From NCBI RefSeq assembly GCF_003285265.1, contig NZ_CP030239.1:1302001-1366000 (forward strand): a DNA stretch of 64,000 nucleotides, read 5' to 3'. Every line of letters begins with the position of its first letter. The first letter of the stretch is position 1. Origin of the DNA: Paracoccus mutanolyticus (GTDB taxonomy: Bacteria; Pseudomonadota; Alphaproteobacteria; Rhodobacterales; Rhodobacteraceae). This document shows positions 43,476-45,394 of this stretch, piece by piece. The notes beneath the pieces were generated by a model. The model was not told the DNA's origin, ran no database searches, and saw only the letters and a list, made by a program, of their open reading frames with translations. Position numbers and translations under genes: made by a program.

Positions 43476-44096
43476 ATGTCCCGCATCCTGCCCGGCGTCA
43501 TCGCCATGGCCATCGTCGTGGTGGCCTCGAACATCCTGGTCCAGCATCTGCTGGGCGACTGGCTGACCTGGGGGGCGCTGACCTACCCCGTGGCCTTCCT
43601 GGTCACCGACATCATGAACCGGGTCTATGGCCCCCAGGCCGCGCGGCGCGTGGTCTTTGCGGGTTTCATCACGGGCGTCCTGTGTTCGGTCGTCGCCGCC
43701 GGCTTCGACAAGACCACGCTGCGCATCGCGGTGGCTTCGGGCGCCGCGTTCCTTTCGGCGCAGCTGATGGACATCACAATCTTCAACCAGTTGCGAAAAT
43801 ACAACTGGTGGCTACCACCCCTTGCGGGCAGCCTGGTCGGCTCGGTGCTGGATACCGCCGTCTTTTTCACCATCGCCTTTTCGTCGGGACTGACGCCGCT
43901 GTTTCCCGGCGACGACGTTTCCTGGGCAAATGAACTGGTTCCGATGCTGGGCCACGGCCCCGTTCAGCCGCTGTGGGTTTCCTTGGCAGTTGCCGATTGG
44001 TTGGTCAAAATGGCCCAGGCGATCGTCGCCCTGATCCCCTTCCGGATCATCGTCGGAAATTTGATCGAGAGACGGTCCAAATTCATTGACTGTTAA
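43476..44096 (+). CDS. yhhQ: Queuosine precursor transporter (VUT family)
   Basis: A 206-residue inner membrane carrier for queuine or preQ bases used in tRNA modification. About six spans; typical features are NILVQHLLGDWLTWGALTYP, VAFLVTDIMNRVYGPQAARR and AQLMDITIFNQLRKYNWWLP, followed by SLVGSVLDTAVFF. Intact and single. A structured RNA candidate lies directly downstream. Confidence 0.92.
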   Translation: MSRILPGVIAMAIVVVASNILVQHLLGDWLTWGALTYPVAFLVTDIMNRVYGPQAARRVVFAGFITGVLCSVVAAGFDKTTLRIAVASGAAFLSAQLMDITIFNQLRKYNWWLPPLAGSLVGSVLDTAVFFTIAFSSGLTPLFPGDDVSWANELVPMLGHGPVQPLWVSLAVADWLVKMAQAIVALIPFRIIVGNLIERRSKFIDC

Positions 44097-44150
44097 GACC
44101 GCTGTGGCAGGCTCAACCCATACGGCAACACATTGAAAGGAGGTGGTCCA

Positions 44151-44207
44151 GTGTCGAGAGTGATAGTGGAGAGAGGTGTCGGGACAGTCAGGGGGGCCGT
44201 GGCCTAA
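44151..44207 (+). CDS. Possible 18-residue peptide inside the structured RNA
   Basis: A GTG-initiated frame of 18 codons, rich in Val and Arg, placed at ideal distance from a perfect extended ribosome site. The site is paired in the predicted fold, so translation would need the fold to open. The peptide has no recognised relative. It could be a real small protein or the frame could be incidental. Confidence 0.35.
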   Translation: MSRVIVERGVGTVRGAVA

Positions 44208-44284
44208 GGGCAGCCCCAAGGGTCGTTAACCCTGACTGGGACGGTGGGCACCAACCCTAACCGGACCATCTCCTTGGATCTCGC

Positions 44285-44318
44285 GGGCCGTTTCCAGGAA
44301 ACGGCCCGTTCCCTTTTT
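44285..44318 (+). terminator. Intrinsic terminator
   Basis: GGGCCGTTT, loop CCAGG, AAACGGCCC, a perfect 9-bp stem, followed by GTTCCC and five T (44314-44318). It closes the structured RNA unit and would also end read-through from yhhQ. Confidence 0.85.
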
Positions 44319-44774: not shown

Positions 44775-45394
44775 ATGTCCCGCCGAGAACCTGGCCTGTC
44801 CACCGCAGCCACCGTCTTCGCCCTGTCCGTCGGTGCCGGAATGCTTGCCGGCGCGCTTGGACGCCTGCCCCCGAAGGGTCCGCCCGACAGCGCACCCGGA
44901 CGCACCGCCCGGCGTTCGCAATTCGGCCGCTATCAGGTCGCGGGCAGGACGGTCACCATCGCCGCGCCCCGCGCGCAGATCTATCGGATGTGGCGCGATC
45001 CCGCCAGCCTGGCCGGGTTCATGCAGAACCTGGCCGGCGTCGAAACCGGGCCGGACGACCGCGTGACCTGGCTGATCGATTCGCCCGCCGGTCGGTATCG
45101 CATCGAGACCCGCCTGACCGTCGAGCGCCAGAACGAGATCCTGGCCTGGCGCTCGGTCAGGGTTCCGAGATCGAGATCGAGGCCAAGGTCCAGCTGCGCG
45201 ACGCCCCCGCCGGACGCGGCACCGAAGTCGAGGCCCATGTTGCCTGGCGCCCGCAGTTGGGCATCGTCGGGCACTGGGCCGCCATGCTGCGCGGGACCGA
45301 CCCGACGATCCGCGGCAAGCATGAACTGAAGCGTCTGAAGATGCTTCTTGAAACCGGCGAAATCGCCACCTCGGAAAACCGGAAGGCAGTCTGA
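44775..45394 (+). CDS. SRPBCC-fold (cyclase/dehydrase-like) protein (frameshifted)
   Basis: About 206 residues: an N-terminal membrane segment (STAATVFALSVGAGMLAGAL), then a START-like lipid or hydrophobic ligand pocket (VTIAAPRAQIYRMWRDPASL, FMQNLAGVETGPDDRVTWLI, EVEAHVAWRPQLG). Frame break near 45165. CAGGAGG precedes the ATG. Its stop overlaps the start of the dehydrogenase gene (TGATG). A pairing of this family with the next gene's dehydrogenase type is often seen, suggesting a shared but undefined role. Confidence 0.8.

Follow-up and report, generated by a model that had tools for sequence, protein, structure and literature searches.

The space that follows yhhQ in our window, by which we mean the whole 64,000-nucleotide stretch of DNA that was analysed, most likely holds a single-copy RNA gene of about 190 nt that, judged from its sequence and that of its relatives, would be a mini-mRNA and a structured RNA at once. 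Such a gene appears in a single copy in most of the tested genomes of the order, and its sequence includes the whole complement of the 16S rRNA tail, which is often hidden by the RNA’s own fold. Should the RNA prove to sense how many ribosomes are available, we know of no other regulator of that kind; should it be only a micropeptide gene, it would still be a core gene, and one that Rfam does not report when its cut-offs are applied to the window. Its sole curated relative is labelled a small RNA, yet the start, frame and stop that have been kept argue for translation. An earlier note on this DNA made the basic observation, which is now confirmed and strengthened, and its interpretation is partly supported.

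What does the locus look like?

All of the features lie on the forward strand. The extended Shine-Dalgarno sequence, GAAAGGAGGTGGTCCAG (44135-44151), within which sits AAAGGAGGTG (44136-44145), is complementary to the 16S rRNA tail, and a GTG start at 44151 opens a frame of 18 codons (VSRVIVERGVGTVRGAVA, 44151-44207) that closes with a TAA stop at 44205-44207. In both the MFE fold and the alignment, the ribosome site provides the 5′ strand (44137-44149) of an outer, masking helix of 13 pairs with one G.U, the 3′ strand of which, GGACCATCTCCTT (44263-44275), mimics the 16S tail. An inner helix of nine pairs joins 44185-44193, inside the frame, to 44230-44238, and an intrinsic terminator completes the unit at 44283-44318, with a 12-pair stem (44283-44309) and then a T-rich tail (one terminator was predicted, against a shuffle mean of 0.5, sd 0.8). 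The Shine-Dalgarno sequence, GTG, 18 codons, both helices and terminator all lie exactly where the earlier note had placed them; its description of the ribosome site as the full complement of the 16S 3′ end is real but understates the extent of the match, which runs to 17 contiguous pairs with one G.U. The MFE fold of the region, at -87.1 kcal/mol, contains both helices (z -2.55; 3 of 200 shuffles were equally good).

Just 5′ of the masking strand is a strongly conserved stretch, CCTAACCGG (44256-44264), which recurs as CTAA[CT][CT]G in 82 of the 91 Rhodobacteraceae-type elements. It pairs with nothing obvious.

The extended site, GAAAGGAGGTGRTCCA, has one exact match in the genome, and allowing two mismatches adds five more, against six for a reversed control pattern. 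Two of these five have a GTG at an equal distance, but they read as coding sequence within a protein (REEVIQW, by eye dnaE-like).

How widely is the element found?

The element is not a product of chance, since the 211-base region finds matches throughout the genus, in 101 of 101 genomes at E <= 1 and in 100 at E <= 1.5e-26, the exception being genome G021, with an unconvincing match at E 0.168. Near-identical elements are also present in three named Paracoccus records (L131, L138 and L198). When the 149 genomes available for the order were searched with a covariance model built from 32 Rhodobacteraceae-type elements (alignment A1), 140 gave a match, and each of these gave just one. Using a strict pattern, which fixed (A/G/T)TG and TC after the Shine-Dalgarno sequence, so that the start codon and Ser2 are partly built in, we found matches in 121 of 198 family genomes and in 45 of 289 class genomes (a single match apiece, where a reversed control gave nothing); in a sample of the phylum, 46 of 86 genomes of the class matched versus 0 of 213 outside it. 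The 80 named records listed (of at least 119) belong to Alphaproteobacteria, except for two under the label Gemmatimonadota and a few under Proteobacteria alone. Judged by these pattern and model matches, relatives of the element extend through the class Alphaproteobacteria.

Of at least 119 named stretches found by the pattern, 80 entered the counts below and 39 form a held-out set; stretches cut by contig ends were removed beforehand, and 209 elements became 183 when identical ones were dropped. The 91 Rhodobacteraceae-type rows were classed by peptide pattern, and part of any constraint on codons 5-7 is therefore built in, while all of the shuffle tests take no account of relatedness among elements.

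How might the ribosome-binding site be hidden?

Across 50 of 50 aligned genus loci the site GAAAGGAGGTGGTCCAGTGTC is identical. The rows of alignment A1 were picked with a pattern requiring a pyrimidine-rich 3′ strand, a choice that itself raises the percentages for the outer helix. In this alignment the seven core pairs of that helix form in 32 of 32 rows, with an invariant Shine-Dalgarno side and 19 pair-keeping changes on the opposite strand; the pair next to the core is made by G-C in 22 rows and by A-U in four and is unpaired in six, and the second pair beyond the core is unpaired in 18. Because of that selection, a fairer test is one in which pairs are scored directly after the anchor CTAA[CT][CT]G (the 9 of 91 elements without it being left unscored), and here all seven pairs with GGAGGTG are present in 79 of the 82 anchored elements, versus 1182 of 16400 mononucleotide shuffles (7%).

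Not every clade hides its site in the same manner. When the best partner of the Shine-Dalgarno sequence within its own RNA was ranked against 100 dinucleotide shuffles, it fell in the top five in 69/91 Rhodobacteraceae-type, 14/28 VSH-type, 7/22 MSS-type, 1/4 Bradyrhizobium-type and 9/23 other elements, and in 0/15 of the sphingomonad type, where self-masking is not above chance by this measure. The masking strand lies 3′ of the frame in Rhodobacteraceae-type elements and within it in the VSH type, in several of which the partner, CUGGAUC...GCCUC, encodes a recurrent TW..AS. Since the ranks differ by type and the VSH partner sits inside the frame, self-masking is common, not universal, and shifting in position.

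Turning to the inner helix, 92.7% of its cells in A1 are paired and two-sided changes are seen in six of its nine pairs. For the whole structure there are 42 cells with two-sided changes versus 12.2 in shuffles, none of 500 shuffles reaching 42, and sliding the partners leaves only 5-13; counted by pairs, the seven that show two-sided changes are not beyond shuffles, which average 5.5 and reach seven in 55 of 500. Both helices of the earlier note, 44137-44149/44263-44275 and 44185-44193/44230-44238, are borne out among relatives, and its proposal of a separate, structured RNA that carries a Shine-Dalgarno/anti-Shine-Dalgarno helix of its own is well supported by conservation, covariation, the TTGAC box discussed below and the terminator.

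We also considered a universal closing helix, joining early codons to the strand that precedes the terminator, which can be picked out by eye in VSH-type and sphingomonad-type elements. It is weak against shuffles (in the top two of 50 for 11/28 VSH-type, 4/23 other, 3/15 sphingomonad-type, 1/22 MSS-type, 1/91 Rhodobacteraceae-type and 0/4 Bradyrhizobium-type elements) and is therefore not claimed for the window.

How might such an RNA work?

The duplex of the extended site with the 16S tail is predicted at -31.8 kcal/mol versus -25.0 kcal/mol for that with its own partner, values that leave out ribosome kinetics and tertiary structure and use a 16S tail taken from three other genomes, because the 16S rRNA of the window’s genome was not found. 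We envisage that the RNA would fold shut after its 3′ strand is made, so that ribosome loading and folding would compete, and that a 30S subunit would compete for the Shine-Dalgarno sequence against the masking helix, a contest that it could win even over the folded state because the 16S duplex is predicted to be the stronger. Translation of the short frame would then melt the inner helix and release the 3′ strand, and this 16S mimic could pair with the Shine-Dalgarno sequences of other messages. The peptide would be mostly a by-product, and the RNA would report or buffer the availability of ribosomes.

Our confidence in the parts of this proposal differs. That the element has the anatomy set out here and is translated seems very probable. 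That it is a self-masked mini-mRNA or small RNA gated and switched by ribosome binding is a tentative reading, for which we would put the chances a little short of even, and that the freed 3′ half acts in trans is rather doubtful. More doubtful still is the broadest form of the idea, namely a housekeeping RNA of the whole class Alphaproteobacteria whose task would be to sense or buffer free 30S subunits, its maximal Shine-Dalgarno sequence being kept closed by an internal copy of the 16S tail until the ribosome opens it, with the act of translation, not the peptide, as the signal.

Is it the peptide that matters?

The rival that we would take most seriously, while thinking it unlikely, is that this is a functional micropeptide gene, in other words a normal small mRNA whose Shine-Dalgarno sequence is unusually strong and whose folds only tune its translation. 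The frame is conserved: frames of 14-35 codons are present in 183 of 183 non-redundant elements versus 33% after shuffling the sequence past codon 2, with GTG as the start in 134, ATG in 45 and TTG in four. There are 18 codons in all 50 aligned genus loci and in 86 of 91 Rhodobacteraceae-type elements, whose stops are TGA (54), TAG (22) or TAA (15). Because the pattern itself required a start codon and TC, 30 loci that were found by the Rfam model discussed below and missed by the pattern provide an unselected check, and in 28 of these a start codon stands in register and opens a frame of 18-35 codons, with TC after the start codon in 27; L081 and L085, in which GGAGGTGRT is not in the expected place, have no row. 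Of the 39 held-out loci, 38 have frames of 14-36 codons and one has a frame of 59 codons with a signal-peptide-like start, which is probably an ordinary gene.

What the frame encodes is another matter. Over codons 2-12 of Rhodobacteraceae-type elements pN/pS is 0.62, compared with 1.00 and 0.98 for the two alternative frames, which leaves room for a role of the peptide, as does the 0.50 over codons 6-12. Against a micropeptide, however, the ratio is 3.49 over codons 3-6 and 1.03 over codons 12-18, and in 16 MSHG-type elements (including L259, elsewhere classed as Rhodobacteraceae-type) it is 1.34, where the alternative frames give 0.73 and 0.58. Nor do the peptides of different clades have much in common beyond Met-Ser, itself partly fixed by the pattern. 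What looks new, at least as far as these comparisons indicate, is an element that looks translated and whose peptide is barely constrained while its start site, frame and fold are; constraint falls mainly on starting, staying open and stopping.

The micropeptide reading does gain something from Sinorhizobium meliloti SEP1, which PMC10117765 describes as an acidic peptide of 23 aa (pI 4.18) conserved in Rhizobiaceae, with the top translation efficiency by Ribo-seq among 54 unannotated small frames and a tagged form detected on a blot. SEP1 may be a relative, to judge from this description. Its length of 23 aa is shared with three frames (L296-L298; pI 4.41, 4.68 and 5.94) from family f160, a fourth frame being of 24 aa (pI 5.75). 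The f160 elements were found in four of ten genomes searched, all of that family, with three mismatches allowed and a reversed control that also matched in three of the ten; the four were accepted because they have one string and the same context in common. All four (L295-L298) have one extra A in the Shine-Dalgarno sequence (GGAAGG), which would bulge the 16S duplex.

Two other small RNAs with very short or small coding frames invite comparison. The rnTrpL of Sinorhizobium, an attenuator-derived small RNA with the leader peptide peTrpL that is called dual-function in PMC10117765, similarly combines a small RNA with a very short frame, but is leaderless and comes from the 5′ end of trpE, whereas the window’s unit has an extended Shine-Dalgarno sequence and no conserved downstream gene. 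Pos19 of Rhodobacter sphaeroides is likewise a small coding RNA of a related bacterium and is compared here by description; it differs in being 219 nt long and stress-induced, according to PMC5036791.

Is it a known RNA?

An Rfam scan of the window at cut-off level gave no matches. Below the cut-off, however, RF01867 (CC2171, a Caulobacter small RNA) matches at 34.3 bits (E 5.7e-6; curated cut-off 75), and model positions 1-28 are aligned with high posterior, so that the conserved 5′ block is present. The two share this block, GAAAGGAGGUG(A/G)UCCAGUGUC, and a terminator hairpin at the end, which suggest a distant relation, and they are of similar length. They differ in that the long-range helix of CC2171 before the terminator, CAUUGUC/GACAAUG, occupies model positions deleted in the window’s alignment, and in that the window’s masking strand lies 3′ of the frame and not within it; CGAGA/UCUCG, as a substitute for that helix, is no better than shuffles (1/91 in the Rhodobacteraceae type). 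With a score below 75 bits and the long-range helix absent, the element is not filed as a member of CC2171. The earlier note’s statement that it could name no known RNA family therefore holds for family membership, but not for kinship, since CC2171 is a distant relative. With the same model and a limit of E <= 0.1, matches turn up in 56 of the 190 class genomes scanned, seven of them above the cut-off and most with a single copy, and the weakest of these matches may be chance. The window’s element represents a branch of its own, distinct in structure, within a class-wide RNA whose described relative is labelled a small RNA.

The literature on that relative is thin. Published tables report one added covarying pair for CC2171 in Rfam 15 (PMC11701678) and its prediction as a small RNA in Mesorhizobium huakuii (PMC5596092). 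The open-access literature searched under the names CC2171 and RF01867 yielded no function, and ‘CC2171’ with Caulobacter yielded no paper. What matched the element’s sequence forms was one paper, which concerns YbeY and 16S processing. Small RNAs of P. denitrificans are also on record (PMC5107571), and the element may be among them.

The label does raise the rival that this is a non-coding, base-pairing small RNA in which the Shine-Dalgarno-like strand is a seed or structural and the frame incidental, and the strong fold and terminator would suit it. We nonetheless judge it distinctly unlikely, as the start codon varies among GTG, ATG and TTG, every one of the 183 elements has a short frame, and a stop codon is kept though all three stops occur.

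Identity with 6S RNA (RF00013) was also considered and rejected, since the family model finds nothing in the region even with E allowed to reach 10. The only 6S RNA candidate in the genome, at 3530470-3530628 (L038), scores 43.9 bits, just under the Rfam cut-off of 46.4.

It would surprise us more if the RNA served simply to hold 30S subunits, its very long Shine-Dalgarno duplex slowing escape and parking idle small subunits with no action in trans. The 17 pairs and their predicted -31.8 kcal/mol are what such an RNA might be expected to have, but the idea requires a high copy number and leaves unexplained both the masking strand and the fixed stop.

Does it belong to its neighbours?

The upstream gene, a Vut_1 transporter (PF02592, E 1.4e-27) that ends at 44096, is consistent with the name yhhQ used in the earlier note. 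Within its last codons lies TTGACT (44086-44091), a probable -35 box, and AGGCTC (44109-44114) is a candidate -10 at a spacing of 17, with an RNA start likely at about 44117-44122. A strict sigma-70 scan found no promoter at the element, so that it is conservation which speaks for one: among the 90 Rhodobacteraceae-type elements with 90 nt upstream, 78 have TTGAC at a distance of 46-57 nt ahead of GAAAGG, as do 123 of 4500 shuffles, and in 75 of the 90 the box is followed by a TGTGnCA-like block. Between the box and this block, many elements (for example, L137, L155 and L240) show by eye ACAC-N-AAATCTGTG, in which CACA...TGTG may form a dyad recognized by a regulator.

Nearest upstream genes form a largest cluster of 13/103, the yhhQ group, and nearest downstream genes one of only 6/98. 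Because the downstream genes are not shared, the element looks, from its surroundings, like a free-standing unit with its own TTGAC box in the end of yhhQ, a short 5′ end and its own terminator. A short frame, alternative helices and a terminator do resemble attenuators, and the earlier note had entertained a switchable leader peptide, but a cis-acting leader or attenuator of a downstream gene is rejected as very improbable indeed, with no conserved gene directly downstream and the window’s next gene (DUF3606) on the other strand. A guide for 16S 3′-end maturation deserves almost no credence: the complement spans the 16S tail, but only 18 of 183 elements have an A just ahead of GAAAGG, the position that would face the next 16S base, U. 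The complement therefore ends at the mature 16S end, and pairing with the precursor beyond it finds no support.

Two minor observations concern genes nearby. An ArfB-like ribosome-rescue gene (RF-1 domain, PF00472, in the L126 copy) adjoins the element in eight loci (L126, L127, L137, L153, L158, L178, L187 and L194), which looks like local synteny. In the window itself, a Polyketide_cyc-like gene (PF03364; 44775-45394) has its start and end in different frames, with an apparent change near 45160 that seems to be either a real frameshift or a sequence error.
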